This document shows, piece by piece, positions 4,646-53,746 of a stretch of DNA of 64,000 nucleotides (position 1 is the stretch's first letter; each line of letters starts with the position of its first letter). Under the pieces are notes generated by a model. It had not been told where the DNA came from and made no database searches. It saw only the letters and a list, made by a program, of their open reading frames with translations. Source of the DNA: Primula veris (taxonomy: Eukaryota > Streptophyta > Magnoliopsida > Ericales > Primulaceae); contig OY821748.1 in the NCBI GenBank assembly GCA_963682055.1, positions 687,001 through 751,000 of the forward strand, given 5' to 3'. The position numbers and the translations under genes were made by a program.

Positions 4646-4690
4646 TGTTACTAGAACACAGGATCCACACTAAGTAAGATCTAGTGTGAA

Positions 4691-19485: not shown

Positions 19486-19557
19486 GTATAAGTAGTAAAT
19501 AATTTAGTCACCCAAAAAGTCCCAATAATCCCACATTTTACCCCCTTTTTATGACTA

Positions 19558-24877: not shown

Positions 24878-27292
24878 ATGGAGGGGAGAGAGTTGCAACA
24901 TTTTTTCCATAAGCACCCGTTGATTCTCAGAGTTGAAGAACCAAAAACTAATGGTAGTAATGATCATCCAGGGGAGAAGATAAAATGTGATGGGTGTTTG
25001 ATAACAATTTCAAGCCCTTTTTACAGTTGCGAAGAGTGTCGATTCTTCTTGCATAAGGTATGCGCCGAACTACCGAGGTCATTGGACCACCCCTTGCACC
25101 CAAAACACACTCTCGTCCTCTTTAAGAGTTATCCTTTTAGTAATGTTAGTTTTCATTGCGATCTGTGTGGAAAAGAGGGGCCCGGAAAAGGTCCGACTGG
25201 GTTCATTTACTATTGTAACAAATGTTCATTTCATTTTGACATGACATGTGCTTCGGGAACACAAAAGATTGTAGATAAATGCCATCCACATCCACTAACT
25301 CCATTACAGGTTCCACTCACATTTTTCTGTCATATCTGTTGCAAAGAGGAAGAGGGTTTGTCTTACAAGTGTTACAGCTGCCCCTTTTGGGTTCACCAAA
25401 ACTGTACCTTATTAGGCGACACAGTTGAACATAGCCATCATGACTATCCATATGCATTGAGAGAGCTGCAACATTTCTTCCATGAGCATCCTTTGATGCT
25501 CATAGCCTATGAGTGTAAAACTGAATACGGTATCGAGCATACAAACATGAAATTAGAATGTTATGGGTGTAGGACACCAATCTTGGGACCTTTCTACAGT
25601 TGTGGAGAGTGTCAATACTTCTTGCATAAGGTATGCGCCGAACTACCGAGTGTGTTGGACCACCCCCTACACCCAGAACACCCCCTCTCCCTCCTTCAGA
25701 GGTCTCATAATGACTATAAATGTTTTTTATGCAGAGAAACTGGGTCCAAAATGATGGTTTTCTATTGTTCCATCTGTGAGTTTTATCTGGACATAAAATG
25801 TGCTTTAGTAGCACATGTGATTCAAGAAAAATGCCATCCACATCCATTAACTCCTTTAGAGATCCAAATATCATTCCTATGTCATGTTTGTTTGGAAGAG
25901 AAGAAAGGTCTCTCATACAGGTGTAACATTTGCCCTTTTCGGGTTCACCAAAATTGTACTTTGATACCTAGCACGGTTAAACAGCAGTATCATGGCCATC
26001 TTCTCAAACTTATTCCGTCAATTCCATTTAAGTATTCTAAGGTCAGCGAATACTGTGACATCTGTCACGGTAAGCTCTTCATGTATCAATGCATCTACGG
26101 TTGCGAAATGTGTCTGTTTTTTGCCCATGCCAGTTGCGCAATATCAGAAGCCATACAACCAACGTCAACATCATGGTTAGTCAATCTAATATTAATATTA
26201 CTAACTTCATGGGAGTGTATATCCTGTGTATTTTTCATCCATGAGAATTTGAAATTGATGATGATAAAAATGCTCTTATGTGAATTTTTATAACTAACTT
26301 GGTGTATTATAACTTGTAGGGAACAAAATACCGATGGTCAAAGTCTAATCCTTTTGCCCATGAAACAAAATTCAACGGATTTGATATCAAGATTTGTTAG
26401 GAATTATATTGATGTAGATGTTAATATAGTTAATAAGATCGATTATTTTGACCATGAGCACCCGTTGTTCCTAATTGATGAGAAAACGAATGATAAATCA
26501 TGTGACGCATGTGCAATACCTATATCGCCTCCCTCCTATGGTTGTGTTGAGTGTAATTATTTCTTACACAAGTGTTGTACCGATTTACCCAAACAGATTC
26601 GCCACCCACTGCATCCTCAACACCAACTTACCCTACATACAGCAAGTTTATTGTGGTGTGAATACTGCAAGCAGTGCTGCAATTTAATTTTCTACCGATG
26701 CTCCGAATGTGTAGACTTTGGGATGGACATCAACTGTGCTTCAATATTGCAAACAAGTGTAGTATACCATGAAGCTCACAAACACCCTCTCATACCAATA
26801 ATTAAATCATCCTCAAGCCGATGTACTGCATGTGGTGACAAACCGTACTTTGAATATATCCTACATTGCGACACGTGTAAGTTTGAATTATGCTTTAGGT
26901 GTGCTATGATGCCACCTGTCATGGAACATAGGTATGGGAAATCAGAGCCCTTCATATTAACTTACTCTCCGCTTGAGAATCATTATAGCGAATATATATG
27001 TGAGCTATGTATGAAAGACCTAAACCCGAAACTCTGGTTCTACCATTGTGTCTTTGCTGATCAATTCGTTCATGTAAAGTGCATGGTCGATTGTGGGGCA
27101 AATTCAAATATCAAGTATGGAAAGTCCATCAAGTTCAAAGGATTTCACGAACACGAGGTTACTACGATTTCATGTATCTACGATGTCTCTTGCTGCAGCA
27201 GGTGTCGTCACCCTTTGAGAACTGGTTTGTATGCAGGTGTTGGGCTTGAATGTAATACTTGCAACTTTAGGACTCATTTGTATTGCCCATAG
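24878..27292 (+). CDS. Cysteine/histidine-rich C1 (DC1) domain protein, 756 aa
   Basis: Plant DC1 proteins are zinc-binding, C1-like proteins of mostly unknown role, often stress-linked. Exons 24878-26175 and 26320-27292 join in frame (TG|G, Trp) over a GT-AG intron. The protein is a string of about ten C1-like modules of the pattern H-x-HPL...CDxC...YxC..C.FFLHxxCAELP. Residues about 1-190 and 195-400 are an internal duplication: FHKHPLIL/FHEHPLML, FYSCEEC/FYSCGEC, HPHPLTPL twice. It ends with CNTCNFRTHLYCP. The ATG is the first in frame after the acceptor. Partial copies lie on both sides (22413-23247 and 27650-28093), so this is a tandem family locus. There is no signal peptide or membrane segment. 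Confidence 0.88.
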
Positions 27293-31110: not shown

Positions 31111-34100
31111 TCACATATCAAACATGCCTAACTCTCGTCGAATAAAACAAAATTGTTCCTCATTAAGGGGTTTTGTAAAAATATCGGCTAATTGCCTATC
31201 GGTACTTATATATTCAAGTGTAATATCCCCTTTTTGGACATGATCCCTTAAAAAGTGATGACGTAAATTAATATGTTTAGTGCGAGAGTGTTGGATCGGA
31301 TTTTTCGAAAGATTTATTGCACTAGTATTATCACACAAAATAGGTACACTATCAAACGATAATTCAAAGTCGTTTAGTTGTTGACGCATCCAAAGGATTT
31401 GTGCGCAACAACTACCCGCGGCGACGTATTCCGCCTCCGCCGTGGAAAGCGCAACCGAGTTTTGTTTCTTGCTATGCCAAGAAACTAAGGCGTTTCCTAA
31501 AAAATGGAAAGTGCCACTAGTACTCTTTCTATCTAATCGACAACCGGCAAAGTCGGCGTCGGAATAGCCAAGCAATTCAAAAGAAGTATCATGAGGATAA
31601 AACAATCCTAAATTGCAAGTACCTACAAGATATCTAAAAATGCGCTTAACGGCTATAACATGCGATTCTTTAGGGCAAGATTGATACCTAGCACACAAGC
31701 AAACACTAAACATGATATCGGGTCTACTTGCGGTTAAATATAAGAGGGATCCAATCATACCTCTATAGAGCTTTTGGTCCACGCTTTTACCCGATTCATC
31801 CTTGTCTAGTTTTGTTGCCGGACTCATCGGAGTTCCTAGCGGCTTTGCATCGCTCATGTTGAACCGTTTGAGCAAGTCCCTCGTGTATTTGGCTTGATTG
31901 ACGAAAATTCCGTCCTTTGTTTGTTTGATTTGCAATCCAAGAAAGTATGTGAGTTCACCCATCATGCTCATCTCGAATTCACCTTGCATACACTTAGAAA
32001 ACTCCTCGCACATGCGAGCATTAGTAGCACCGAAAATAATATCATCAACATATATTTGAATTAAAAGCATATCTTTTCCATCCTTTTTAATAAAAAGAGT
32101 AGTGTCTAAAGTACCACGAGAAAAACCCTTTTTGATCAAAAATTTACTAAGTCTTTCATACCACGTCCGGGGTGCTTGTTTTAAACCATAAAGTGCTTTA
32201 CGAAGTTTGTAAACATGATCGGGAAATGCGTGATTTTCAAAGCCGGGTGGTTGTTTTACATAAACTTCCTCATTTATAAAACCGTTCAAAAAGGCACTTT
32301 TAACATCCATTTGAAACAATCTAAAACGTTTAAAAGAAGCATAAGCAAGCAACATTCTAATGGCTTCTAGTCTAGCTACGGGTGCGTAAGTTTCATCGAA
32401 ATCGATGCCTTCTTCTTGGTTATACCCTTGAGCTACTAGTCTAGCCTTATTTCTAATGACTACCCCGGATTCATCCATCTTATTACGAAATATCCATTTC
32501 GTACCTATAATGGTTTTCTCACGCGGTCTAGGTACTAATGTCCATACGTTGCTACGCTCGAATTGATTTAATTCGTCATGCATAGCTAATACCCAACTCT
32601 CATCGAGTTCCGCTTCATGAATGTTCTTGGGCTCTAATTGAGACAAGAATGCAAAATAATTAACTATATTTCTTAATGATGAACGTGTATGCACTCTTTC
32701 TCCCGGGTTACCCAAAATTAAATCTTGCGGATGGTGATTGGCAAAACGCCATTCTTGAGGCAAATCCTCATGAATATGTACGCTAGATTCTAAGTCCTTT
32801 TGAAGTCTCTCTATAGTGACTTCTTCATCAACGGGTTCAACCTCTATGCTAGGCGTTGACTCTAAGCTAGATGTAACATGATTCGAAGAAGATGCTTTAT
32901 GAAAAATATCATCATTAATATTATGAACAATTAAAGGCTTATCAATCGTCGGCAAATTCTCATCAAATGAGACATGTACCGACTCTTCCACCAATAAAGT
33001 TCTTTTATTAAAAATACGATAAGCTTTACTCGATATAGCATATCCAACGAAAATTCCTTCGTCGGACTTAGCATCGAATTTTCCTAGATTATCCTTACCA
33101 TTATTATGAACATAGCATTTACAACCAAATGCACGTAAATGAGAAATATTGGGCTTTCGCTCATTCCATAATTCGTAAGGTGTCTTTTTTAATATGGGCC
33201 TAATTAAGGCTCTATTTAAAATATAACAAGCGGAATTTACGGCTTCGGCCCAAAAATACTTTGGCAAATTATTTTCGCAAAGCATGGTCCGTGCCATTTC
33301 CTCTAGGGTTCTATTCTTTCTCTCTACTACCCCATTTTGTTGGGGCGTACGAGGAGCCGAAAAATTATGATCAATACCATTTTCATCACAATAAGTTTGA
33401 AATGGAGTATTCTCAAATTCCTTACCATGGTCGGTTCGGATACTTTTGATCATATAACCCTTTCGTGTTTGGAGCTTTTTGCAAATAATAGAGAATTCTC
33501 TAAATGCTTCATGCTTATGAGTTAAAAACAACACCCAAGTAAAGCGACTAAAATCGTCAACCATGACGAAGGCATATGCACGCCCGCCAAGACTAAGTGT
33601 CCGGGAGGGGCCAACTAAGTCCATATGAATGAGCTCCAAACAACGAGTAGTAGAAATAATATTTTTAGACTTAAAAGAAATCTTTGTTTGTTTGCCTAAT
33701 TGGCAAGCGTGACAAAGTTTGTCCTTTATATAAGGAGCTTTTGGTAAAGCGATTACCAAATCTTTACTAGAAAGTTTAGCAAGTAAATCAAGACTTGCAT
33801 GACCAAGTCGTCTATGCCACAACCAACCATTGTCATTGATAGTAACAAGACACTTAACTTCATTTTCCACCGAACTATTCAAATCAATCATATAGACATT
33901 GTTTTGTCTTTGACCCATGAGAATAGTTTTATTATTTGAAATACAATGAATGATGCAATGAGATTTTTCAAAAATGACTTTGTGACCCAAATCGCAAAGT
34001 TGACTTATACTAAGCAAGTTGTGTTTAAGACCATCCACAAGCAATACATTATCGATAACAACATTAGATGTTTTAGAGATACTACCAATACCGATAATTT

Positions 34101-34245
34101 TGCCCTTGCTATTATCTCCGAAGGTCACAAAACCTCCGTCTTTAGGTGCAAGAGTGGTGAATTTTGTTTTGTCTCCCGTCATATGTCTTGAGCATCCACT
34201 ATCCAAGAACCACTTGTCCTCGTTGATTTTTGACCTCAAGCATAC
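31111..34245 (-). CDS. Ty1/copia pol: protease, integrase, RT, RNase H
   Basis: About 1044 open codons beginning directly after a TAG (34248-34246), with no ATG at the head. Domains: protease [10 protein letters not shown] near residue 14; integrase zinc region with HRRLGHAS and CHAC, then catalytic [17 protein letters not shown] and [15 protein letters not shown] with [11 protein letters not shown] and YVDDIIFGA near 730; RNase H with [21 protein letters not shown] and CDNTSAI. The end is intact (ELGMFDM). It is in a different frame from gag, so expression needs frameshifting, splicing or another route, or else the junction is mutated. Confidence 0.93.
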
Positions 34246-34261
34246 CTACAAGACAAAACGA

Positions 34262-35953
34262 TCATTGGTACCCTAATCCATTTTTGGGTCCTTGAGGGTT
34301 AGAGTCTCGACCCTTTGGAATCCAAACCAAATCATTTCTATTAACCTTATACCTATTAGGGCAATATATGTAATCTTCATAGTGATCACTACGGTTGCAA
34401 GTAATACATTTTACATGCGATATAGGTTTAACAAAACGATTATAAACTAAGTTCTTTTTATACGAGTTGTTTTTATGAGAGTGATTTGGTTGTCTACTTT
34501 CATTTTTAGCCGTTTGTTTGGTGAATAGGTTTTTATGCTTAGCCGTTAAGAGTGGGTTGTAACCTACACCGGTTTTATCATACGCGCCTTGTTGAGAAGC
34601 TAATATAGTACTTAGCATTTTACTACCTTTAGTGAACTTAGAGAGAGTAAGTTCGGCGCTATCCGCCTTAAGTTTACATGACTTAAGGTCATCAACTAAC
34701 TTATCATTTTCTAGGGTGAGTTCGGCATTTTTAGTTGTGAGTGAGTCATTTTTCATAGCTAAATTTTCAAGTTCGTCTTGTAGAGTAATTAGCAATTTTC
34801 TAAAAGATTTGTTCTTACCTCTAGCTTTTTCTAAAGACTCTAACACATCATTAATATCAAGACAATCATCACTAGAAATAGAGGAGTTAGAGGAGTGATA
34901 GCTTACATCCTCGGTATCATCGTCTCTAGCCATGAGACATAGATTTGCGACTTCTTCATTGTCGCTATCGGAGCTATCATCATCGCTCCCCCATGCGGCC
35001 AAGAATGCCTTCTTGTTTTCCTTTTTCTTTACGAACTTGTCCTTTTTCTTCAAGGGACATTCGTTTTGCATATGGCCGGGTTTGTGACATTTGTAGCAAA
35101 TGATTTCGTCCTTTTTGCTAGATTTTTCGGAAGTCTCTTCCTTATATTCCTTTTTCCGAAATCGTTGTCCACCCTTCTTTTTCCAACTTAGGAATTTGTT
35201 GTAGCGTTTGGCAAAGAGAGCCATCTCATCATCCTCACTAGATGAATCATTTTCGCTATCGTCATTTGTTGTGCATTTGAAGGCAATGCCTTTCTTCTTT
35301 TTCGAGTCATCCTCATGCTTTCGAGTCGTCATGTCGAGTTCATGAGTGCTTAGGGATTCAATGAGGTTGTCGAGAGAGAGAGTGTTCATGTCCTTGGCCT
35401 CTTGTATGGCCGTCACTTTCGATTCCCACTTCCTTGGAAGATTTCGAAGGATTTTCGTCACCATCTCCTTGCTAGAGTATACCTTTTCAAGTCTTTTAAG
35501 ATCATTAGTAATCTTAGTAAAACGAGTGTATATAGAAGCAATAGACTCGTCATCATCGACTTTAAATAATTCATAATCATGAATAAGCATGCTAATTTTA
35601 GAGTCCTTAACTTGACTAGTTCCTTCGTGCATAATAGCTAGCTTATCCCACATTTGCTTAGCGGTGTCACAACCGGAAATCTTATCATATTCACTAGGCG
35701 AGAGCGCACAAGTGATAGAAGTCATAGCCCTACAATTTAGGGAAAATGCGAGGCGTTCATCGGTGTCTAGTTCCTCTACAAGTTTATCTTCGCCATTTCT
35801 CCTAGGCGTTCTATAGCCTTTACTAATACTTATCCATTGGTCTATTTCAAAACCACAAAGGAAATTTTTCATAAGGTCTCTCCAATAGGGATAGTTAGTA
35901 CCGTCAAAGAATGGTGGCCTAGTTATGGATTTAGAGTCGGCGTATGAAGACAT
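34262..35953 (-). CDS. Ty1/copia gag (563 aa)
   Basis: Capsid protein with the UBN2-type gag fold: PPFFDGTNYPYWRDLMKNFL at the start, then AKQMWDKLAIMHEGTSQVKD, and the CCHC knuckle CYKCHKPGHMQNEC near residue 285, followed by acidic and coiled-coil-like parts (ENDKLVDDLKSCK) and a second Cys cluster (CITCNRSDHYEDYIYC). The start is the first ATG after the 5' LTR and primer site. It ends in GLGYQ-stop, 17 nt before the pol frame opens. Confidence 0.92.
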   Translation of the reverse strand: MSSYADSKSITRPPFFDGTNYPYWRDLMKNFLCGFEIDQWISISKGYRTPRRNGEDKLVEELDTDERLAFSLNCRAMTSITCALSPSEYDKISGCDTAKQMWDKLAIMHEGTSQVKDSKISMLIHDYELFKVDDDESIASIYTRFTKITNDLKRLEKVYSSKEMVTKILRNLPRKWESKVTAIQEAKDMNTLSLDNLIESLSTHELDMTTRKHEDDSKKKKGIAFKCTTNDDSENDSSSEDDEMALFAKRYNKFLSWKKKGGQRFRKKEYKEETSEKSSKKDEIICYKCHKPGHMQNECPLKKKDKFVKKKENKKAFLAAWGSDDDSSDSDNEEVANLCLMARDDDTEDVSYHSSNSSISSDDCLDINDVLESLEKARGKNKSFRKLLITLQDELENLAMKNDSLTTKNAELTLENDKLVDDLKSCKLKADSAELTLSKFTKGSKMLSTILASQQGAYDKTGVGYNPLLTAKHKNLFTKQTAKNESRQPNHSHKNNSYKKNLVYNRFVKPISHVKCITCNRSDHYEDYIYCPNRYKVNRNDLVWIPKGRDSNPQGPKNGLGYQ

Positions 35954-36005
35954 AGTGGATCTTTAAACTATAAAATCGTTAGATTTTTATGAATAGAATA
36001 GCTAA

Positions 36006-38483: not shown

Positions 38484-40103
38484 CAATTGCGGTTTGAAAT
38501 GTTTATCATAAGATGCACACAAAGATGCACAACAACAGTATACATCTGCACAAAGAAGCACTAGATACTGTTGCTTAAGTACACTTTGAAAGAAAAAAAT
38601 ACAGAACTGCATCTTCTAACAATTTCTTAAATGGAATAGTGGTACATCAACACCATCATAAAATATATTTCATTATCGTCATCCACTATCACGTTTTCAC
38701 ACAGGCATGCTTGTTAATGCAAATAAGAGAAACGTGGCTTCTTCTCCAGTCTAAACTTGTAATCCATATTACTACCACCAATTCACAATCTGCAAAACAC
38801 ACAAAAAGAACAAAATTAGCAGTACGATAGTGAAAGACCTCCACAACTACATGAAGCTCCTATATAATTACAAGAAAAATAGGAACTCTATTACCAAAGA
38901 AATGATTTTGCACTGCAGAACACATCTATGGAGAAAGAATGGGATATGTGAATACAAGCGCATACAATAAAGAACAGGTTTAGGATATAGGGAATCGAAT
39001 AGAATCATAAGACTTGAGAGTTGTGAAGGAAGGAGGTCTCTGGCTCACATAAATGGAATAAGGACAATTTCGAGAAAAATGAACTGTCGTAGACATCATT
39101 GCCTAAAAACAAGAATGAGGATGAGAAAATAGTGTAAAGCATCGTTATTTCTAGTACTAAGCTACTCACTGCAAAAGAAAGATAACATATTCAACAGAAA
39201 TAGAATATTTTAATAATTACCTGAAACATTGCTGGAGTAAATGGTTGTGAACCTCACACAATAGCGCCATCTAGAGAGCCGGTTACTTGTGTAATCTATG
39301 GCTTCATTAACTCTCTTTAATATAGTTTCTTCAATCTTCAGTAGATAACCTCGCCTGATGTAGACTTTAGGAGATTTTTTAAGAACTATCATGTCAAAGC
39401 TAAAACTTTATCGATTAGACCACCTTGTTTCAGGTGCCTTTGGTCTGGGTTAAATGAGCTAAATATACTCCAGGAATTCACCCATTTTTATCTGTGTTTT
39501 GTATACACAAAAAAAAAGAATGAAAAATATGAAACTTGATAATTCTTCATTCAGGTGCCAAATGACTAGTCTTACATTACTTCATACGTGTTGCAAGTTC
39601 AAAAGAAAATAAATGACACCCTATCATCTCCCTGACATGAAACGAACTTCTTTTTTTATCTGGCTACCAACGCTAAAGCATATGAAGCCAAGCGAAAAAT
39701 CACGGTGTTCCACAACTGTAAAATATTCTACACCATTTAATTCCTATCTAACGCTATTTGTTCATCGTCTAACACACGTGCTTAACAATCGTAAGCAACT
39801 GAACTACAAAGAAATTCTAAAACCAAACAATCAAAGAACAAAGGAAATTGTGATATGAATTTACACAACAAGACCAGAAAACGAAAAAAATGTGCACATA
39901 ATTTATTATTTATAAAACATAATTCGATTCCAGCTGTCTTGTAATTCATGAGTACTGAACGAGTAAGGTATGCAATCAACCATAATTTCATACTCCTATG
40001 ACATTTTGTACCTGGAAATCTGAATCTAGCAAAGTTTGAGCTTTAACTCTCGAACTTCGTGGATAAGAAATACTAATTTCTGACCCTGAGTTGCCTGCAG
40101 CAT
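38484..40103 (-). pseudogene. Decayed C-terminal region of the ALWAYS EARLY gene
   Basis: Beyond the stop at 40106-40104 the same strand still holds ALY-like exon sequence in shifted frames. At 40023-40103 there is NSGSEISISYPRSSRVKAQ, matching the ESGS...SSRxKAQ region of ALY. At 39231-39400 there is KIEETILKRVNEAIDYTSNR, matching the ALY stretch ending AIDYVNNR, then a frame change and an in-frame TGA. I found no clear copy of the final ALY exon. The rest (38484-39200) shows nothing I can name. The normal C-terminus is therefore lost or badly decayed. Confidence 0.6.
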
Positions 40104-43100
40104 CTACAACTTCTGTGTGTTTGGACTAAGGTGGAGGGAGCTAAGGTTCGTATTGTGTTGTCTAAAGTCTCTTAGAACACTTGAAATCTGTGAAATGAGA
40201 CAATCAACTTATAACATTGTGCATAAATATGGACATGTTTTATTTCTGTGTTTTGTGGTGTTTACAAATTTTAGTAAAGACCTAAAAGATTGTCAGAGGC
40301 CTGGTATGATCGTATCAGAAAACCTTTAATTTGGGCAGAATTTGTGGCTACCATACATAATCCAAACAAACTATTTTTAAAATTATTTGAGTACATCTTA
40401 AAACCTTTTCTTTAGGTCAGGAAACAAAGAAACTGTTCTGAAAAGCTGAATAGGCATTTACACCAACTTTAAAAAAAGAAAAACTGAAAAGTTGCATATA
40501 CAAACTCAGATAGACCAATGGGAGAAGTGCTCTATTTGCCTAATTGTTTGTTTATTTGAACTGAAGTAAATCATGAACATGTAAAAAATAAAACGAAACC
40601 AATGCCAATACAGTAGTTGATAAAATAGCTTGCCTGCATTATTAAAAAAATTGTTAAAGCAGCCTAAAATATCATATTATGCGATTGACGGCATTTCCAC
40701 ATAAATGGAAATGAAGAAACAAAAAATATGTCCTCATGGAGTTTAAAACCACACTTTTAGCTATTCCTAAGAGAAATAAAAAATAGAGTAATAATAACAT
40801 TGTGCTTTCAAAGACATACCTGGCCATTTACTGAGTCTAACTGTAAAAGGACAGAAGCATACTGCTTCTTCATCTCTGAATCACTTAAAACACTGTTGCT
40901 TCTGTGTTCAATCACATCATTTATGCTTTGCAACTCGAACACCAACGTTTCCTTCAAGATTTTTAACATAAAACGTCAGCTTATATATATACAATATATA
41001 GATATAGATATATTCCTATGTACGACAGAAAATAAACAACAATATTTGACAACACGCCTAGTTCTTTAAATTATAACATGAATAAATGCAAGTTAAGTTT
41101 CACTTCTTCTAACCTTCTTCTTAAGGATACAAGTCATCTCGGAAAGAGATTGCTTATCATCTTCTTTTGCCTGCATCTGAGCCAGTAGAGCAGAATACAC
41201 CACTTGTTGACCTTTACCATACTCACCTATTCCAGCTTTATCTTGCAAATAAGAATCATTACGGATTCCCTGTTCCAAAAACAAGAGTTTCTTTAAAACA
41301 ATCTAGCTGTTAAATCATATAAATTTCAATATCAACTTTCTTCAGCAGAAGTGACAAAGATGCGACTCCAATTACAAAACGAAAATCTTATTTATATATT
41401 TAATCAGAAACGCAGCTATAAGTTATGACCATGTTCCAAAAACAATGAAAAGATGGGGATAATCTGTTAAAGTAGTTCATATGCTTCATCGGTCTATGAA
41501 CTATCAGATCTATATGTAGATTGTCTAGTCCAGTAACCACTTCACCTTTGCCTTTTTAGCACGTCTAGGAAAGTGTATGATTGATATTGAGCATACTAGA
41601 ATGACAGGGCATACTAGTCGAGATATGACCATGATGTCAAAACTTCATAAAATCCTGGAAAATAGAATTGTCTATATATGTAAATATTTGTTCGTAACTG
41701 CGAGGATACTTTTATCAAGATAGCATTGAATCTCTAAAGCTTTGGTCTACTTCCAAAGAGTTTTGATCGACTTAAAGCGTTTCATATTAGATTCCTTTTT
41801 AGGTCTATTTGTGCCATTTAATTGGAAGAACAACATATTCTGTTCTTTGTGATAAAAATCTCATGCACAACCTGAGGCTGATTCGGCTGTACTACATCAA
41901 ATGACTAAATTCATCCATGAAAACTGTTACCTAAAAAACCCGAATAAAAAGACGAGATTTATATAATAATAAGATGGACACAATACAGATCATAGACCCA
42001 TAAAACTACAACTTGAAAACTCCTCCCGGGTACCATATACAAAAGTTCACATCACAATCGCAACACTATCTTTACATAGTAAATGGTGAATCAATTAAAA
42101 TGCAAACACACTGACCTTCACCTCCTTCGTCAACTTACTTGAGTTGCAAGCTGGTGACAAATGGGAGGCCATATCAACAAATTCAAGTATTTCACCAAAA
42201 GATTTTTTGTCATCCCCTCCTTGTTTACTTTTAGCTGGTTCACCCGTTTTGATCTCGTAGAAGCTTGTAAATAACTCATTTCTTGTGGCTGCTTTTCTAG
42301 GTAGGGATACAGGCATGTTCTCTAAAGGGTTCAGTGGCCTGCAATCAATATCCTGCACCAAAGAAAATACATTAAAACACACAGCTTAAGGAAAATTCCA
42401 AAAAAGAAACTTGAATCAGAATCCTGTAGAAAAGTTTTGGCTAAATCTATCGGGTTATTTGCGGGTTTATACCCTGTTCTAACCACTTATTGGGATTTTG
42501 TATCCTATACTACTTAACTTCTCTAATTTAGTTTCTATACTACCACTGCCCTCTGGGTTTTTTCCCTTCCGTTATTTTTTAGGATGGAAATTGTTATTTT
42601 CAGAAATACATGTGCAAGTTCTTTAATTACATACCATGTCACGACCACTCCGTTATTTTTGTTTATAACAGATCAGTCTAATAGTTTTAAAACAATTTCA
42701 ACTTGGTATTTTTATTTTATTTTAAATCTAACAAATTTTGTCCTCAAATTTAAAAAAATATATTGAAGATAAATTACATTTGAGAATTTTAAAAATCTAA
42801 ACGGGTAACCTGAACTTACTATTTTAATTAGAAATTTATAATAATAGATTCAAAACAATTAAAATTAGTGAAAAAGAATTATAGAGAACAAATTATTTTC
42901 ACAAAAATAATCCCGTCATATAATATTAAATGAATCCTAAATCATCTACTACCTAAAATCCACAAGATGTGGCATGTCAAAAAGAAGATAAAATAAATTG
43001 TTAATACAAAAAAAAAGAACTCGATGTTTACTATTTTAAAAAAAAATATTACAGTCGGTAATGATTAAAATTTAGACAATATGGATGAAGAAAAATAGGC

Positions 43101-46100
43101 GAATGAAATATAGGGTCTACCCGTAATTAGATTAAAAAACTTTCTTCCCTAACAGTGTATCTCTCTCTCTCGCTATATTCTAACCTAACTTCACCAATCA
43201 ATTCCCTCTCCCCCGTCATCCCACCAAATTGACCCCCATACTTGTAAGAAACAAAACGTGTCAAAAAACTTAAGGGAATTTGTGTATCGTACACTAACGC
43301 ATCACCGTATTTAAATTTCTGTACCATGCTACATAAAGTAACAATTATTACACTAAAATTACATTTTTCAACAGTTTTATTACACGTCATAGGAAAACAA
43401 CAATAAATCGATACTAGGATAGAAACAGGCGTCGATAGGGACTAAAGTAGGAAAACCGTGATAGACTACTGTACATACAGAAAAATATGAAGAAAAGGAC
43501 AATATTTTGTTTTCTTAACTAAATAATACACAGCAACCTATTATCATTTCCGGTTTTGTACATTAAGTATATTTGTTAGGTTAATGTATTATATTGATTG
43601 ATATTTTTGTAAGTTGGTGTACAAAATCAAAATATGGTTTTATGTAGTGTTGCAGAACGGTAATTAACCAAATGAAAAGGTCTGAAAAGATAAATCAAAA
43701 AGGTAACTGGCAGTTTCTGAATAAAGGCAATCCATGTTAAAAAATGTATTACCTGGACAAATTCAACCCCTAGCTCTGGCCGGTCAAATTGAACTCTGAA
43801 TCTGTTATACTCAACTGATGAAACAATTCCATCAGAAATCTCTCTCCTCTTTGGATGAATGGCCATGACACGTTGACCGACAGATAAAGCTCGGGGAATA
43901 TCTACGGGGAGTCTTTCAGTAACACCTTCATTAAGTTCGTTATAGCATTTTCTAACAGAATCACGATATCGACTAAGGCTTTCCTTTTCTTCCTTCAAAA
44001 ATTGTTCAGAGAATCTCCGAGGTTTGCCAAGAGAACTACAATAAATGACCCAAAAGGTTGATAAATAAGTTGGTCTGCAAAGGGTTAAATACAGTTCTTA
44101 ATTTTAACTTATCATCACACTTCGATTCGTACGCCAATGGCAAACCTACAACAATTAACCATAGATGCACCACCATAATGTTTTGTTTGCTTTTGTATAC
44201 TACATAGAGAAAAACTTTTTAGAGTATGGACCAAAATAGGAAAAAAGTGATACAGTTGTTAATACATTAGAGATGTAGAGACCACATGGTAGAATAATAT
44301 ATATAAAAAAAACTTTGTTTTTTGCAATTAATTAGTAAACAAAAATCTGATTCAGCAGCATATACTGCATGTACTAAATCATTAAAAAATGTAACAGTGA
44401 CTTATTAATTGCTTAATTAAATAGTTTGAAGTACATTTTCTAAATCTAATAATACGTTGATCAGCAAAACTGTTCCTTAAAAAAATATGAGGGGATTAGT
44501 GGTAGAGATCTATGAGGAACTGATACAGGTAAATACAATAAAAAATCATGCAAATCAAATGTCTCTTTAAGAAAATGTTGAACATAATTCAGCAAGAAGT
44601 CTATACTCATAAAAAATTCTGCCTATAGTACTCTGTTCCAGCTTTAGGTGATAGATCTCTGGTTCTAAATATTGTTTGGGAAAAACATCTTATGATATAA
44701 ATGAATTAAGCTTTTCTCAAGTAAATACTAAGACCGAGTTAGAGAGTGGCTAATAAGAGTGTCTGCAAAGCAGTCAAATTAAAAATATTTGGACAGAAGA
44801 GGGACCTAGATGTTGGCAAACTTAAAAGTATTTAAGATCTTCCTGTGAATACAAGGCTTAGAACATGGGTTTCCATGTAAAAGCAGGTCTCACATCCCAC
44901 AAACTCAATAAGAAAATGAAGCTAATTTACCTTTTAATGATGTCCCATTCGGTACGATTCAATCTCGGAACATGATCCAATCCAACATGTTTCAAATATT
45001 CCACAAACTCTCTTCTAGCAAACCAAGGGTAATCAATAGCACTGTAGAACCACTCGAAAACACACCATCGCCTTAATTGTTTGCTTGATAAGCAATTATT
45101 AAGCATGTCCTGAATTAAATAGCACAGAGTTATGCTAACTTAGAGGGTGAGTCTTGGGGCAACGGTAAAGTTGCTGTCATGTGACTATGGAGTTTACGGG
45201 TTCAAGTCGTGGAAACAGCCTCTTGTAGAAATGCAAGGGAAGGCAATCTACATTTGGCCTAAAGTGGTGGAAGCAGCCTCCCCGGAACACGCGCTTTGTG
45301 GAAGCCTTTTAGCACCGGGTTCGCCCCCTTTATAGTTATGCTTACTTAGAGTAAGGTCTATTTTTACTGTTTGGTACACCAACTTATCACGTTTTTTTCA
45401 ATTTAGAACACCAACCTACAATGTTTTCTAATTAAATTATTAGCCTAAGTATATTGCTCAATTGAACACTCCCACAAAACTTAGCATATAGGTTAGTTTA
45501 CAAAAGAGAAATTTTTGAAAACATTACTTTCACAAACTGACTACTGACTACTGCAATACGCGAGGCTTGCGTCAACTTAACAGATGTAGCCTGATTGAAC
45601 TGTTTATGTTAGGTGAGTGTAAATAATAAGTTAGTGCACAAAATCGAAATATCGTGATAGGTTATTGTTCGAACCAGCAAACATACCATTCCAGACAGGC
45701 AGTGCAGGTTTTCTTGCAAATAATCTTAAACGACAACTTTAAGATGGAGTACATCTCAGACAAAATAAGTAGATAGATAAAGTCTGTAAGCACTTACATT
45801 TTCTTTCAGATTTTTCAAGTTTTGTGGCTTCTGTAGGGCTTTTCTACGTTTTGTATATGTAATAAATTTTCTCCCCTGGTTTTGCCATGAAATATTACAT
45901 GGATTATCTCCTCCCTTGCTTGTGACATTCCTTACATAACTAGCCTGTGGCATGTGAGAACATCTTTTTTATCAATGGTATAAACAAGAGAAATTATATT
46001 GCAAAGAGGACATAGGTACGCTGCAATGGATAATTGCATGGCACAAAAGAGGGAAACAAATACCCTAGCAGGTCATAAATTTTGGAAAGTATTATGGAAA

Positions 46101-49100
46101 CAGTAGTTAGATGTGGCGTCACTGATGAAAACTGAAAAAGCATTTTCTTTCGCTTCTCTTAATGTGCATAAGGCCGAGATTTAAGAATGATCATCTACTC
46201 TGGTATGATCTGAACCAAAGTGTACTTAAAATAAATACTCTATGATAGTAATATTATTATTTCATCCCATAAGTGACATATTTTGTTTGCGGAAGAAAAT
46301 GGCTATGGTTGTGCACTTGTTTGTAAGTGAGGGGGAGGGAGACAAGAGAATTCACCTCAGCCTCCTGAGAATCACTTTGACGAGTAAGAGTGTGAAATTC
46401 TTCTCTCAGAGTCTAAAATGCAATGAAATAAGAATAAGTCCAACATGAATGTGCCGCAATTTTGATAAATAAATAAAAAAGCAATATTAGTTCAGTTAGA
46501 TAGCACTATATTGCTTACTTCAGCAATAAGGATACCATTGTTATCAAGACCAGAACCTTCCTCAAGGTACGGCGTTTTACCAACAGAAGCTCCACTTTGA
46601 TTGCCTTTTTCTTCTTCGAAATGCACTGTCGATTCTAACAAGGAAGAAAGAAATAAAAAAGCAACTTATATACTTATACCAACACAAACTGAAAGAAAAT
46701 GAATTACAAAAGCCAAACACACTTCAGTCAAAGTTACAGACCATCCTATACCATTGCTGCCTATTAGCTTAGTGTTATGGTTTGATCATTCTAGGTAATT
46801 AAATAAGAAAACCCATAGAGTGGGTTGAATTTTTTAGATTAAGGTCAGTAGTCATTTATAAATTTGTACAACAACGGATTTGCCTATATGGCCTCAGAAG
46901 TCAGACTAAGAAGAAACCTCTCTTAAAAAGCAGTCTGCAATAAGCACAAATATATGTTTGGAGTGAAGAACTAGCACGGAAATGACACCAAAAGTATTAG
47001 TACACAAATAGTGGAACTAAACATGTCGTCTAAAGAGTGGGAACCACAACTTCCATGCAAAAACCCTAATGAATTAACTGCAGATACGGTCAATAGCATA
47101 GATATGCAAAGTTCTTTTAAGGGGAAAAGTCTGGTACAACACAACATGGCCTAAATGTAAAAGAAAAGAATTGTAGCAAACCACTGCAATTAGCAAGGAG
47201 CACGAGAATCCTATACGGCAATAGCATTGGGCGCACAAATACACAGAAGTATAGCTATCAAATGATCATATAAATACGAAGTACGAACAATACACCACCT
47301 CATTTCAGCTAAATCCACAAAATTTACATGGTCAAAGATGTCAGTACAAAACTAACCATTTCCAGTAGTTGATATCCTCAGTGACAAATCAGCCAAAGCT
47401 TGTAATGCCTCAAAAGCAGATCCTTCATCTAAACAGTAAGCAACATAAAAATTTACAAGAGAATTTTAGTAATGCAAATATCAACTCAACTGACAACAAA
47501 GCTGTCAACCACCCCATTGGTGGTGCTCTCGATTACTTTATTTCATTGAAATTATATTTTCTTTCGTAATGGATGTGGTGATACATAACAAAAGTACCCT
47601 CAGAGAAAAGTTCGAATGAAACCAAGATGGAACCATATATAGAGCAATGTATAGATACACGTGCATGAATCATTTATAAAGCAATGTATGGAACCATATC
47701 GTTCGAATGAAACACATCCATCAGGTGTATTGAACTCGTTCGGATCATTTGGTACGACAAGCTCTTCCAATTCAAGGTTATTTATCTCATGCAGCCTATC
47801 TTCATGGTTCTTAAAGGGGAATAACATTACCCGACTCAAATGAATTTGGAGGTGTGGAAGTTGGTATAATCTTGACAAAAAAGAAATTTAAACAAAGAAC
47901 TAATTCTTTTATGCCACTAAACTAATTTAAAAATTGAGGTTGTGGTGGTAAAATCTACATTTGGGATTTACCTAATTGCGAATTTTCATGAGTGTAAAGC
48001 ACTGGATCCCTCACAGAATCAGCTTCATCTGATAAAATTATAGATGGTCCAGAAAGACCCGGACTAGACTTCGGAAATCCAGATGTTGTGGAAGTTTCCT
48101 GCAAAATATTCAATATAATAGAAAATCTAATAAATTTACATCAAATGACTGATTACAGAAGAGGAAAATCAAATTAAAATATTACTTATGCGAAGAAGCT
48201 TGTTTATAACTCAGCTTACTACCCTTTCATTAGAAATAACAGAAGGGTAAGGTCTTGTTTGGTTGCATCTTTTAAACTCAGCAGTGCCTTTTTGTTTAAA
48301 AAGCTTGACTTATTTGGTGGACCAGTTTGAAAGGTAGGCTTATCTGGATTTTTTGGCCTGATAAACTAGAAGCTTTAAAATGGATGATGCTAGCTTTCTC
48401 CTGAACCACAAAAAACCCAGTGTGCTTGCTTACAAGCTGTGCAATCAAAACAAGCGCCAAGTCTCATTGAACACTGACGATGGGAAAAGACGACTTACAC
48501 ATAGACTGTTCAATATTGCCGAGGCTTTTATGAAACAAATGAACTTTCATTTTTCTGTTAATCCACTAGAAGAACTTATAAAAATTCTACGAATTTGAGA
48601 AAATAACTACTAATTATGAACGTTTTTGCATACAACTGGGGAAAGAAAAGATTCCTTATGAGGTTTGATAGACTAACCTCCCGGGTATCACGATAGTGAA
48701 CAAGGACTATGTCTTCGAGAGCACTGGAATGAAAACCAGCCAAGTTAATACTTAATATTGTTAAAATTTTAGTTTACTTTTTCAGTATGCAAGTCATCAG
48801 TAAAAAATGCCTAAATATTATATAGTGATAGCAAACAACAATTCATACTTGTCGAGAAGCCAATAACATCTGCGGGTAAAAGTTGGATTATCTTCCCCAT
48901 GAGCATAATATACATGGATCTTTTTTTCATTCCCGACCTGTACTTGAAACAATGGTGTATCGAATATTAGATAGGAACGTTACCAAAACAATAAAAAAAT
49001 CTACTAGTGTGATTAAAAAGACTAATAATGTAATTTTAAATGGCAACCCTAGTTTACAAACAACAGGACAAGACCTTGGTGGTCCATCACCGGTTTCTTT

Positions 49101-52100
49101 ATTATTAAAAGAAAAGGGTGGTCAAATATTACAGATGTCAAAAAATTGTGAAAAGTATAAAAAATGTTTCCAGGTCCTGAGTGGTTGAGCCCTCGCCAGT
49201 AGGCCGTACAAGCATATAAATAAAATCCAAGACCAACATGGATATTAACCCAACAGTTGAGAAAATAGTTATGTGAAGTAAGCGGCTAAATGCACCAAGA
49301 TAAATTAATTTAAGAACCCGGAAGCTTATCTTAAACCATACCCATACAAATTTGAGAAAAAACCGGGGCAAAAATTCCATTTGTTTATTATATCACATTT
49401 GGTCTGAAGTCTCAAATATATTTTCCACGATAATTATGGGGTAAGGTTTATGAGCCAGTGTAGCATTAGTTTTATACAAAACATCAAATAAAGTTGTCAA
49501 GGAAAACAGTTGACAGATAAATAGAATTGATTTACCTCCATGAAATATGACAGCGTGAAAGCAAACGATAAGGTCAGATATAATTAATCATAACATAAAA
49601 ATCCATTTAATGACAGATTAGAACTTGCCATCTCTTTGACAATGAGAAGGATTGACATAAACACAAGGAACAAAATTATCTAAATTTACCACCGTAGACA
49701 ATATAGAAACCTGTGTTGAAGCCGAACGAAACCCTGTATCAGTTGGAAAACTTACTTTTAGGTGTTCATGAGTCTCTGCGACAGTTTTCCCATCCTGTTT
49801 CTTCTTCCAGTTATGACCATCTTTACGGAAATTCCGGAGCTTATTACGATCAAACAGTATAATTGTACCAGCTAGGTTTCAAGAAAAGGAAATAACAGAA
49901 ACACACAGTTTAAAACATATGATTAATACTGTAGCGTACAGGAATAATGTTTGGTTATGTGGGAATTAAATTAATTAACAAAGATACATCTGCTATAGCG
50001 ATTTGATTATGACATTTGTTACTGATAGTACCACTAGTAATAACCTTTTGGAAAGTCAACCGGTTCTACGTTGATACTGAAGTGGCTATAGTTGCAAAGT
50101 ATCGCATGTATCTCACTTGGACGTAACCATCTCGACATTGCTTCATTCATGATACTACCCACATCCAATCCTGACCAATAAAAAATGAATCAGTTAACTA
50201 TCCCAGTAGCATTTAAGCATAGTAATTTGTACAACACTATTGATTATTATCCCATATCGATAGGTTCTTCGTCTTAGCCTATGCTTATTATGAGTTCCTC
50301 TCCTTCCTATCCTAAGTCCTATTGTGGGGAATGGATGGACTCCAACAAACAAATAAAAGGTTCTATAAAAATGCACCTTTTTTCTTTATTCATACTATAA
50401 GTCAAACTAAACATAAACATTGAGCAAGCTGTTTGTGGAAATCTCAGTGATCTTGTAGTAATTGTTGGACATGTCAAGTCAACACATGTTCAAAGGGAAA
50501 AATGTGCTAGTGACAACTTGAGAATCAGCAAAGATTATTAGGCCTATTTTGTAATTATGTTGTATTATTTGTTTCCTCATTCACTCATATGTTCAGTAAA
50601 AATAGAGGAGGTAAATACTGATTTGGTTATGCAGAATAATACATTATCGTTTTATTATTTGTCTTCTCTGAATCAACAGATACAATCTTCTTTCTTCTAC
50701 TTGTTAATCATGATGCCATGTGTTATCTTAATTTTTAATAATTTTGAAATGTTTCCACGTTTTAAGCACTAAAAAGAAGCATCAAAGGATATCTGACAAG
50801 GGAGGTTATGTCCTAATATATACAAGCCTTCTAAGCATTGATTCTTGATTAAACTGAAACAATGCAGAAGATTTAATGAAAAATAAATCTTCTCTTGCAC
50901 AATCGTACCATATTCAATCAAACTAAAGGTGATAGTGCATACAGTTCATCAAGCAACTACAAAAGCAGGCAATAAACAGCGTCTAAGTATACAAAACATG
51001 TACACAACCTAAAGACCCAAAAAGACATTAATGTTTAAATAGAATGACGAACCTTGAGCCTTTTTGCTATTCTTTTTAGCTATGTGACGGGCAATTTTTC
51101 CGGGTTTTATCCCAGAGTACCGTGTTCCTGACACACTACTTGATTCCTTAATGGCATCTAAATAATTTTTTACGCCGTAATTGGTGTCCAAGTTCTGTAC
51201 ATTATTTCCTCTCTCTAACCCATCACCATCTGTATCACTAAGGTATCTGGCACTGGTTGATTTCAATTCGGTACCCTATACGGAAAAAGGAATTTGAAGG
51301 ACAGATAGCATTGGTTACTTACAGAAACAGTGTAAACAGAGTGCAAAAATAACCAAAGAAACTTACCATTCTTTCTCCATTCCAAGTTGGTAATAAAATA
51401 ACTTTTCCTGTTCTTTTGTTTGACAATTGAGAATTTATGGGAGAACTAAACTTTCCTCCGCCAACACTTTTATCAGAATATAAAACCGGGGAGCATGGCT
51501 TCCCTTTCTCATTGATTTGAGGCTGTGTTCCTGGAGAAGAAAAGTTAAATTACATTTACAAATCAATCCACATCACATTGCTAAGAATTGCATAGACTTA
51601 ATGACCCAGGGGTCGTTACTTTTGGCGAGACACAGACAAATAATTACAGTATGTTTGCTAAAAGGTAAGATCTGCTACAGAAGTTTTCACCACAGCGTCG
51701 ATGCAAGATAATTAATGAGTAAGGAGAAACTCGGATGTTACACCTGACTATGTGCGTGCGCGTGTGTGTTGGGGTGGGGGGACAGGGGACATACCACCAC
51801 TGGGCTTCTTAGATGCTGATATCACCAGATGTGATTTTAGTTTCTTCTGAGAGTTTAGACATGTCTCGCCTCCTTCTGGATCCCTATTGCTTTCCACCTA
51901 ATAGACCATAATTAAAGTTACAAGTCACTCAAGTTGTCGTGCCATTGTTAGGACAAAACTCAAAAATATTTAACATCACAGCTGTTAATTGTCCATACCG
52001 ATTCCATATTTTGTTTTATGATGTTTAATTATCCTTCCTTCTATTTAACTTCTTAGAGGAAATGTATGGTTTTAGCACGCTATTGTTATTTGGGTTGTTT

Positions 52101-53053
52101 CCACCTTTAATGTTTAAGATAAATGTGTTATGTGAGAACAGATTCAATAATATTGCATGGAAACCAAAAAAAATTAAAACCGAAACAGTTTAAGAAGATT
52201 TATCACTACAAATCAGGAATACCAACAGTTTCAAAAGCATTAGAGTTTGTATACTGATATGCCCTTCCATCTCTTAAAAAATCCATTATAAGTGTGGCTA
52301 TGATCCTGTATAGCACTTGCCTCATGCCACCTATGGTCTGTTTGGTCTGGAGTGGTAAAAGTAAGGATTTTATATCACAAGAGATTATTATACAAGGACG
52401 ATTTACTAAGGGGTGAAGAATAACTATCAACCATGGTCAAGGTTAATCTTTTACCCCCATTCGTCTTCATTTCTATTCTAACTAAAATGAGGTGAAACAT
52501 TTTGGAGTACCTTTCATCCCATACCAAACACACCATTAAGCAAGTATCATACAGAGAAAGGAAAAACAAATACATACGATATGCACAGTCATGTCTTACA
52601 TGCAAATGACAAAAAATCCAAAATAGCTTCACAAGGGAAAAGAGAAAATCTCTATGTATCTTCATTTCTGGATAAAGAAAGTGCATTCCCTTCACCGATG
52701 AATGAGGCAAATTACCTTCTTGGTGAAAGAAAACAATCTTATCACCACTATAACAAAAGAAAATTCAAAGAAAAAAACCATGTTAATTTTCCACGTAACT
52801 AACATTTCATAAAGATCTCACCAGATTGCAATAGTGATCGGTCATCATTGCAAAAAATCCAACAGCCGAAGCAATTCCCTCTGGTAAAGACAAGTATGCC
52901 TGAAAATCCAGCAAAACAGAAAGATAGAAAGCAGTATTAACCCTATTCCATGCAATTAAGATAAGACATTACTTGCTTAAAAATGGCCTACAGAACACAA
53001 ATAAGAGTATATAAAATCTTACTCTTCAGGGGGGGAAATTGTAAAAGTGTGAG

Positions 53054-53110
<57 letters not shown>

Positions 53111-53746
53111 TTTACCTTGTTCATCATGTAAAGAGCCTCCACCATATCGACAGACCTATTCGGCACTTCAGCCGCCACCTACAAATGACAATATATTATT
53201 CCATTTTGTAATTGAAGTAACAAAAAGTCAGAGATTAACAGAAAGCTTGTTCTTAACCACAATTAATCTATCACAAATCTTGTAAAATGCAAATCATAGA
53301 GTTCCTCTAACAAAGTCAAGCACTTCAGATAGATAGCCATGGTTATACAATTCACTATGCCGTAATTCATAGATATCTACATACCTTTCTCCAATCCTTT
53401 CCATATTTACGGTATGCTTCATAAAAAAGTTCTAACTCCTCCTTGCTCCACCGAGACCCTAACATATCAGAGAACTTCCTCTTCTACAAAATAATAAGAT
53501 AGATTTATATTTAGAACAATTTTGCGAATGCTATTTGAATATATAGATGTCACTCACTAGCACGTTGGAAAATGAATACATGAGGAAGCAAAATACAAGA
53601 CAATTCTCAGCATTCGTAATACTTCAAAAGTCTAACTTTATTTTGCCTGAAAACTATCTCACCCGCTGCAGACTTTTCTTGATATTCTCCGCATCTTTAC
53701 TCAGAGAAATCACACTCAGGCTTCTAGATTTTCTTATCGGTGCCAT
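40104..53746 (-). CDS. ALY: ALWAYS EARLY (LIN-9-type) protein gene with an embedded CG-1 cassette; C-terminus truncated
   Basis: ALY proteins are plant LIN-9 homologues of the DREAM/MuvB cell-cycle complex in the nucleus. Exons (high to low): 53746-53663, 53483-53385, 53178-53116, 52899-52822, 51897-51795, 51530-51367, 51275-51053, [CG-1: 50170-50045, 49871-49756, 48937-48849, 48723-48678, 48098-47972], 47428-47357, 46634-46519, 46412-46356, 45944-45798, 45109-44931, 44035-43753, 42352-42116, 41269-41114, 40951-40820, 40187-40104. All are GT-AG with agreeing phases: 926 aa with the cassette, 758 without. SANT domain 29-82 ([20 protein letters not shown]), [14 protein letters not shown] ([18 protein letters not shown]), then [11 protein letters not shown] and [14 protein letters not shown]. 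It ends early at TAG 40106-40104; homologous sequence beyond is frameshifted. Confidence 0.88.
42353..43752 (-). other. Long ALY intron with repeat-like DNA
   Basis: A 1.4-kb intron between two conserved ALY exons. It is AT-rich with a (CT)n patch at 43159-43176 and stretches resembling worn foldback repeats. Open frames at 42584-42766 and 43127-43390 are not conserved-looking. Confidence 0.55.
45146..45333 (+). mobile_element. Au-like SINE in an ALY intron
   Basis: Starts GGTGAGTCTTGGGGCAACGG, has the box-B-like GGTTCAAGTC at 45199-45208 and the typical GTGGAAACAGCCTCTTG and GCACCGGG blocks of plant Au SINEs. It is flanked by an 18-bp duplication AGTTATGCT(A/T)ACTTAGAG (45128-45145, 45334-45351) with one mismatch. 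It is tRNA-derived and moves by LINE enzymes. It lies in the intron before the DIRP exon, opposite to ALY. Confidence 0.85.
47690..47845 (-). pseudogene. Next CAMTA exon, inactivated
   Basis: Continues the CAMTA homology after the cassette: [10 protein letters not shown], then in another frame [20 protein letters not shown]. The expected acceptor before ATTCATTTGAG reads CAA instead of CAG (47848-47846), and one extra base near 47812 shifts the frame. It lies in the intron between the cassette and ALY exon 47428-47357. Confidence 0.75.
47972..50170 (-). CDS. In-frame CG-1 (CAMTA-type) exon cassette inside the ALY gene
   Basis: Five exons (50170-50045, 49871-49756, 48937-48849, 48723-48678, 48098-47972) total 504 nt, 168 codons, entering and leaving in phase 1. 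They encode a whole CG-1 domain, the CGCG-box DNA-binding domain of calmodulin-binding transcription activators: [72 protein letters not shown] and IVLVHYRDT, then a Ser-rich tail. The wording is closest to CAMTA5/6. The TIG, ankyrin and IQ parts of CAMTA are absent. CAMTA introns are retained, so it came by DNA duplication and not retroposition. ALY exon 7 ends ...CAA G and the next ALY exon starts AT GAA, so both inclusion and skipping keep frame. Expression is not shown here. Confidence 0.85.
48251..48458. mobile_element. Tourist-like MITE within a cassette intron
   Basis: The ends GGTCTTGTTTGGTTGCA and TGCAATCAAAACAAGCGCC are imperfect inverted repeats. No clean target duplication was found. 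It sits in the intron between the fourth and fifth CG-1 exons. Confidence 0.55.
53059..53107. repeat. (AT)n microsatellite in an ALY intron
   Basis: About 24 AT units, ending 9 bp from exon 3 on the genomic map (intron side of its donor). Similar TA runs lie at about 54398-54425 and 55166-55190. Confidence 0.95.

Follow-up and report, generated by a model that had tools for sequence, protein, structure and literature searches.

A CAMTA-derived CG-1 cassette within an ALWAYS EARLY gene of Primula veris, a candidate chimeric gene

ALWAYS EARLY (ALY)/LIN-9 proteins are SANT and DIRP scaffolds of the MuvB/DREAM complex. In human MuvB, the DIRP module binds RBAP48 and LIN37 and belongs to the nucleosome-binding part, and the C-terminal half of LIN9 binds LIN52 and LIN54, the DNA-reading subunit. 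Chimeric genes produced by exon shuffling through genomic duplication are a known kind. CAMTA factors are calmodulin-binding transcription activators of calcium signalling. The CAMTA family is characterised by ankyrin repeats and a calmodulin-binding region (PMC4770041). In a stretch of 64,000 nucleotides from Primula veris (the window), a copy of part of a CAMTA gene lies in the phase-1 intron 7 of a shortened ALY gene. Judging from the sequence, we lean towards the view that its five CG-1-region exons are spliced in frame, which would give a SANT - CG-1 - DIRP protein. Such a fusion protein is predicted to own a CAMTA-type DNA-binding domain.

The host ALY gene and the CG-1 exons

The host part of the spliced model consists of 17 exons, most of which match an ALY paralogue.

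53663..53746, minus strand: ALY exon 1 with the start ATG; paralogue match
53385..53483, minus strand: ALY exon 2 (SANT/Myb); paralogue match, Pfam
53116..53178, minus strand: ALY exon 3 (SANT/Myb); paralogue match, Pfam
52822..52899, minus strand: ALY exon 4; paralogue match
51795..51897, minus strand: ALY exon 5; modelled without a paralogue match
51367..51530, minus strand: ALY exon 6; paralogue match
51053..51275, minus strand: ALY exon 7, ending in phase 1; paralogue match
47357..47428, minus strand: ALY exon 8, starting in phase 1; paralogue match
46519..46634, minus strand: ALY exon 9; poor conservation, boundary less certain
46356..46412, minus strand: ALY exon 10; poor conservation, boundary less certain
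45798..45944, minus strand: ALY exon 11; partial conservation, paralogue match
44931..45109, minus strand: ALY exon 12 (DIRP); paralogue match, Pfam
43753..44035, minus strand: ALY exon 13 (DIRP); paralogue match, Pfam
42116..42352, minus strand: ALY exon 14; paralogue match
41114..41269, minus strand: ALY exon 15; paralogue match
40820..40951, minus strand: ALY exon 16; paralogue match
40104..40187, minus strand: ALY exon 17, truncated where the frame changes, with its TAG at 40106-40104

Pfam recognised Myb/SANT at residues 39-76 (43.0 bits) and DIRP at residues 590-691 (115.7 bits) of the spliced model that includes the cassette. The host copy is without approximately 200 C-terminal residues. 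The C-terminal exons, which paralogue A2 has, were sought in the 64-kb window and not found. LIN9_C scored 24.7 bits, below the cut-off of 26.5; this is a weak criterion, as many ALY proteins among the matches listed are also without a precomputed LIN9_C match. Omega of the ALY branch was 0.40, below 1 (2dlnL 9.1), and the constraint was weaker than in paralogue A3. The host ALY is a C-terminally truncated paralogue under relaxed constraint.

Between ALY exons 7 and 8 lie five minus-strand exons of 504 nt in total (126+116+89+46+127). Each has an open frame, AG/GT splice sites and a homologous exon in a parent CAMTA gene.

50045..50170, minus strand: CG-1 cassette exon a, 126 nt
49756..49871, minus strand: CG-1 cassette exon b, 116 nt
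48849..48937, minus strand: CG-1 cassette exon c, 89 nt
48678..48723, minus strand: CG-1 cassette exon d, 46 nt
47972..48098, minus strand: cassette exon e, 127 nt, a CAMTA exon that follows CG-1

Every acceptor is AG and every donor GT, and the frame is entered and left in phase 1. On the spliced ALY-cassette model, Pfam matched CG-1 with 149.8 bits (E 3.4e-44) over profile positions 2-115 of 116, which bears out the original prediction of a complete in-frame CG-1 domain inside an ALY intron. Exons a-d alone scored 154.8 bits against PF03859, compared with 159.7-162.4 in three paralogues. The majority of the cassette splice sites had normal scores. Exon e contains 15 nt that are absent from the parent gene.

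Origin of the cassette

The cassette belongs to a genomic duplicate of a CAMTA5/6-type gene, the introns included. Its features and neighbours are as follows.

47713..50240, minus strand: CAMTA5/6-type duplicate segment with introns, about 2.5 kb (blastn against the parent)
47716..47834, minus strand: exon f, the decayed sixth exon of CAMTA, with a 1-nt insertion and without its former acceptor and donor
50238..50347, minus strand: single LTR of a TRIM-like element of about 345 bp, directly adjoining the CAMTA segment at its 5' edge
50434..50678, minus strand: another LTR-like repeat, about 245 bp long, within ALY intron 7 and occurring once in the window

The parent gene lies on the plus strand of the same chromosome (G000 C9:243360-245762), approximately 490 kb off. 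Blastn aligned the duplicate to it with 82.3% identity over 1771 columns and 78.2% over 688, with edges at 50240 and 47713. In the introns, 275 of 1691 columns differed (16%; JC 0.183) and 28 indels were present. The duplicate begins inside CAMTA intron 1, about 70 nt ahead of exon a, and ends at the sixth exon; it spans residues ~20-229 of the CAMTA relative P0121 (903 residues) and includes neither the CAMTA promoter, the first exon nor the 3' part. The extent of the parent gene was taken from its match to P0121, because Pfam on three single-exon pieces of it gave one weak ankyrin match and nothing else. Upstream of the LTR, a search for further CAMTA homology yielded weak, scattered matches at most. 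Retroposition was rejected because the introns are retained in the copy. The intron-spanning alignment gives good support to the earlier proposal that the cassette arose by exon shuffling at the DNA level. The original prediction did not include the parental CAMTA copy, the decayed exon f, the LTR beside the duplicate or the truncation of the ALY C-terminus.

Selection on the cassette and its possible fates

The evolutionary signal on the cassette is mixed. Its branch omega was 0.505 for exons a-e and 0.567 for exons a-d, neither different from 1 (2dlnL 1.8 and 0.6) and both well above those of the other CAMTA branches (0.10 and 0.06). The cassette branch carried 23 nonsynonymous and 11 synonymous changes and the parent 3 and 6 (Fisher P 0.12, not significant), and the synonymous changes matched the intron rate (11 observed, 11.0 expected). 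The omega values and this match are consistent with an intronic passenger: ALY exon 7 would be spliced to exon 8, and the CAMTA fragment would drift neutrally, intact by luck and youth. Two properties of splicing point the same way. Skipping of the cassette (51053 -> 47428) likewise keeps the frame, and the acceptor of exon b is weak, with a score lower than all 49 of the 49 reference acceptors. We regard a passenger as a serious but rather unlikely explanation, and the distribution of changes argues against it. In the lineage of exons a-e, there were no indels (4.2 expected, 3.6 of them frameshifting), no stops (1.6 expected) and no changes in the 20 splice-dinucleotide bases (1.8 expected). 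Combined, 0 lesions were found where 7.0 were expected (P 0.0009), a value that must be discounted for ascertainment, as the locus was chosen for its open frame. Missense changes also spared the invariant CG-1 sites (1/16, against a mutational share of 33%; binomial P 0.014).

Other tests of missense placement gave P 0.023 for mean site entropy and P 0.043 for new residues already present in a homologue; restricted to CAMTA5/6-like proteins, the site-placement test was not significant (P 0.18). Several CAMTA5/6-specific conserved residues are altered in the cassette. The residues altered in six CAMTA3 mutants are all retained (7/7; PMC10417383). A lysine is reported to be necessary in human CAMTA1/2 (PMC10417383); the cassette has lost lysines in KKKQDG and DRNKLR, which are not equated with that residue. 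Neutral dN/dS had been named beforehand as a result that would refute a fusion. This check was not clearly passed, as the ratio proved inseparable from 1, although the lack of lesions and the sites at which missense changes fell suggest some constraint on the cassette.

The exons may also be included at a low level or act as poison exons. Partial inclusion or remnants of exon f would then lead to a premature stop, and nonsense-mediated decay would tune the ALY level. The weak exon b acceptor fits this, since skipping of its 116 nt breaks the frame, and so does the exon f region, which yields a stop when entered via either tested AG, one directly after the shifted AG. However, exon f has hardly any splice signal left (acceptor score -4.1, donor score -0.5; upstream AG 5.9), and the preserved frame of exons a-e would be needless for a poison exon. 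We consider this fate distinctly improbable. A separate nested CAMTA-like transcript, initiated within the insert and coding for a short protein with CG-1 alone, is very unlikely: exon a holds an in-frame ATG, but the copy starts from CAMTA intron 1, lacks exon 1 and the promoter, and reaches no further than the sixth exon, and with these 5' and 3' parts missing this alternative, foreseen in the original prediction, is weakened. An assembly artefact has a negligible probability. A single assembly was examined, but near-identity would be expected of a misjoin or a collapsed haplotype, whereas the introns are 16% diverged from the sole close copy found, and the 3' flank has no second match.

We consider a young chimeric gene, with a predicted mRNA that includes the CG-1 exons, the most probable interpretation. 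The CAMTA copy would be expressed solely as part of the ALY pre-mRNA, because neither the promoter and first exon of CAMTA nor its 3' part came along in the duplication. The decayed exon f would be skipped, and exon e would therefore be joined to ALY exon 8. The cassette may have stayed open through selection on the ALY frame, with CG-1 itself only weakly constrained. A function of CG-1 within the fusion is possible; the protein might bind CGCG-type sites and enter a MuvB/DREAM-like complex, and the joint promoter targeting of the original prediction is a hypothesis. We also propose, as an unlikely extension, a self-targeting MuvB-type scaffold that has lost its C-terminal part and gained the CAMTA DNA-binding domain in cis, so that the DIRP module would be placed directly at calcium and stress genes with CGCG-box promoters. 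If the fusion is expressed, plain genomic duplication would here have given a chromatin-complex subunit a DNA-binding domain with sequence specificity, in an event that is young and datable. One genome holds the parent gene, the donor exons, the discarded exon and the unfused paralogues, which would open both the first stages of domain shuffling and the retargeting of a MuvB-like scaffold to direct tests.

Comparison with known systems

Among the matches listed in the protein searches, none joined CG-1 and DIRP and none was a near-identical protein from Primula veris, nor did this combination of domains turn up in the literature searched. A sequence search found no solved CG-1 structure, giving three chance-level matches. 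The numbered CAMTA names among the matches listed for the cassette were all CAMTA5 or CAMTA6, and the CG-1 and exon-intron structure of the cassette derive from a CAMTA5/6-type gene of the same genome. Unlike these genes, the cassette sits in an ALY gene, and Pfam found neither TIG, ankyrin or IQ domains nor a calmodulin-binding region in the fusion model; it shares CG-1 with the CAMTA family but not the ankyrin repeats and calmodulin-binding region by which PMC4770041 delimits it.

As in ALWAYS EARLY/LIN-9 genes, the SANT and DIRP exons are open and recognised, and exons 7 and 8 are arranged as in the paralogue models. In the two other ALY paralogue models, exons 7 and 8 are consecutive and the intron between them has no CAMTA similarity; among the matches listed by a genome-wide CG-1 search, none lies close to the two other DIRP loci. 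In contrast, the host intron 7 holds CG-1 exons, and the ~200 C-terminal residues are gone. Compared with exon-shuffled chimeric genes, the CG-1/DIRP pair sets the locus apart, given its absence among those protein matches and in that literature. It resembles them in that an intron-bearing piece of one gene lies within a phase-matched intron of another.

Host gene and predicted splicing of the CG-1 exons

The original prediction of in-frame CG-1 exons inside an ALWAYS EARLY/LIN-9 (ALY) gene held. Five exons (a-e, the cassette) lie between ALY exons 7 and 8, total 504 nt, are phase 1 in and out, and all have GT-AG sites.

Features of the 64-kb window, C9:687001-751000, with the other ALY loci of the same assembly (C9 and C10 are its contigs)
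53746 to 40104, minus: ALY/LIN-9 gene, 17 exons in the gene model
50434-50678: second LTR-like repeat in ALY intron 7
50347-50238: single LTR of a TRIM-like element, adjoining the 5' edge of the CAMTA segment
10456-14491, plus: TIR-NB-LRR gene pieces (from domains)
19555-21309, plus: DYW-type PPR gene (from domains)
24842-26290, plus: C1-domain gene (from domains)
2-4669, minus: Ty1/copia retroelement, one open frame
31114-35962, minus: Ty1/copia retroelement, split into two frames
C9:4.71 Mb and C10:5.78 Mb: other ALY loci

The ALY model comes to 758 aa, or 926 aa once the cassette is included; the limits of exon 5, modelled without a paralogue match, and of the poorly conserved exons 9-11 are less certain. 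In the 926-aa model, Pfam gave CG-1 (149.8 bits), DIRP (115.7) and Myb/SANT (43.0), and LIN9_C was under the cut-off. The last modelled exon carries a frame change and a stop (side region 39000-40187). The remaining C-terminal exons, which the ALY paralogue A2 has, were not found in the window; judged against the Camellia protein, about 200 residues are missing. The closest relatives among the best 120 of 1218 matches were Camellia, Nyssa, Actinidia and other asterids. The genome-wide CG-1 search gave no match near the two other ALY loci.

Constraint on the host was measured over 285 codons of six exons aligning gap-free to both paralogues (A2 and A3). The omega of the ALY branch was 0.40, below 1 (2dlnL 9.1) and above the 0.127 of the other two branches pooled (2dlnL 12.6). 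With the three omegas left free, this copy reached 0.37, A2 0.25 and A3 0.08; its constraint is thus not clearly looser than that of A2. These exons (858 nt) showed 0 frameshifts and 0 stops, against 6.1 and 2.8 expected for a gene that died when the segment was inserted, a zero count flattered by the choice of gap-free exons.

The reference for the splice-site scores was small, with 49 donors and 49 acceptors taken from gene models of the ALY and CAMTA families. The cassette donors fell between the 8th and 84th percentile, the acceptors of exons a, c and e between the 88th and 96th, and that of exon d at the 16th. The exon b acceptor scored under all 49 references because C follows its AG. 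Exon f, a decayed sixth CAMTA exon, has lost both its acceptor (-4.1; parent gene 4.9) and its donor (-0.5; parent gene 3.7) and has a 1-nt insertion. Entry into it via either of the AGs tried led to a stop. Thus, a productive mRNA would join exon e to ALY exon 8.

Origin of the copied segment

The segment 50240-47713 aligned, introns included, with C9:243360-245762 (82.3% over 1771 columns and 78.2% over 688 columns). As judged from this alignment, the copied segment is a DNA-level duplicate. The parent is a CAMTA5/6-type gene on the opposite strand, about 490 kb from the copy. The copied segment runs from about 70 nt before the second CAMTA exon to the sixth. In P0121, a 903-residue CAMTA relative, the similarity of the parent locus covers residues 19-833, where the stretch compared ends; that of the window is confined to residues 20-229. 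A retroposed origin was ruled out, the alignment to the parent running through introns.

The cassette is about 90% identical to the parent over aligned exon letters. P0121 headed the listed protein matches (74% identity), and further relatives among the best 120 of 1304 include Rhododendron, Coffea and Camellia. The parent protein, expected to outscore all, was absent among these 120, so the species seemingly has no entry in the protein database searched. After the parent, the CAMTA relatives at C9:4.13 Mb and C4:21.9 Mb came next, with similarity in exons and their immediate edges; the former had one more match beyond the copied segment (43291-43461, reverse strand). No second match was found for the 3' flank 47429-47712. 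The cassette branch may cover time spent in a lost intermediate CAMTA copy.

The TRIM-like element is about 345 bp long with LTRs of about 112 bp. At least 48 matches were found (approximate; flank search), and two LTRs were present at 10 of 11 inspected loci. The repeat at 50434-50678 had 11 matches elsewhere, with three pairs spaced 1.3-4.1 kb in the stretches compared. The fourth cassette intron carries a 176-bp insertion (48354-48529) that is not in the parent. A short CG-1-like fragment lies at G000 C8:18527673-18528020. CAMTA5/6 and ALY genes lie about 0.5 Mb apart twice on C9 (0.24/0.73 Mb and 4.13/4.71 Mb), an arrangement that would be compatible with an old segmental duplication of both together.

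Selection on the cassette

Neutral expectations were taken from the introns, which show 275 mismatches over 1691 columns (JC 0.183) and 28 indels, with half assigned to each lineage. The cassette had 0 indels against 4.2 expected (3.6 frameshifting), 0 stops against 1.6, and 0 changes in the 20 bases of its splice dinucleotides against 1.8. Counting frameshifting indels, the total was 0 lesions against 7.0 (P 0.0009), in a test biased by the finding of the locus through its open frame. Exon e differs from the parent in length at two places, by 9 and 6 nt, which we read as parent deletions because the next paralogue retains the longer form.

On selection, dN/dS points the opposite way to the lesion count. 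In a tree of four genes, the fourth without exon e, the cassette branch had an omega of 0.505 (exons a-e) or 0.567 (a-d), no different from 1 (2dlnL 1.8 and 0.6). The other CAMTA branches had 0.10 and 0.06; compared with a single omega, the 2dlnL was 13.7 and 17.4. By parsimony, the cassette branch took 23 nonsynonymous and 11 synonymous changes, the parent branch 3 and 6, respectively, and 3 changes stayed undecided; the contrast between the two branches is not significant by itself (Fisher P 0.12). The cassette's 23 nonsynonymous changes compare with 32.2 expected (P 0.058), and its 11 synonymous ones equal the expected 11.0.

The dN/dS check proposed for the cassette thus gave an omega inseparable from 1, but missense changes shun low-entropy CG-1 sites. 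In exons a-d, 1 of 16 changed codons fell at such sites (<0.3 bits, 210 homologues), whose mutational share is 33% (P 0.014). This placement test is independent of the open-frame selection of the locus; limited to 138 CAMTA5/6-like proteins, it was not significant (P 0.18). With CAMTA3 numbering transferred by matching spacing, the cassette retains all seven residues of six CAMTA3 mutants (W26, W75, H88, Y102/Y103, W118 and Y132). In PMC10417383, DNA binding is abolished in five of the six mutants, and W118A binds more weakly.

Predicted product and known proteins

Since no promoter of its own was brought along, the cassette would be transcribed solely together with ALY. If splicing includes it, a frameshift anywhere in it would also ruin DIRP, which would explain a clean frame alongside slack amino-acid constraint. 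The predicted order of the product is SANT - CG-1 - DIRP, its CG-1 being a putative binder of CGCG-type sites. In human LIN9, according to PMC8792015, RBAP48 and LIN37 are bound through the N-terminal DIRP part, and LIN52 and LIN54 through the C-terminal part. Plant LIN9 relatives having DIRP without the Myb-binding domain are already recorded in PMC7225089.

By precomputed domains, no protein with both CG-1 and DIRP occurred among the best 120 of 1218 matches of the ALY search (scoring only the 7993 candidates with most words in common), the best 120 of 1304 of the cassette search, or 96/96 matches of a third protein search. No report on CG-1 with ALWAYS EARLY, LIN-9 or DIRP was found in open-licence papers, a set with most subscription journals outside it. 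Two CG-1-like stretches occur in the sequence of P0122 (Tagetes erecta). P0241 (Camelina sativa), whose score in the third protein search far exceeds the share of its best local match, may be similar. Both exon shuffling and chimeric genes are familiar phenomena, so the predicted ALY-CG-1 fusion would be new only as a variant, a new case of a known process.
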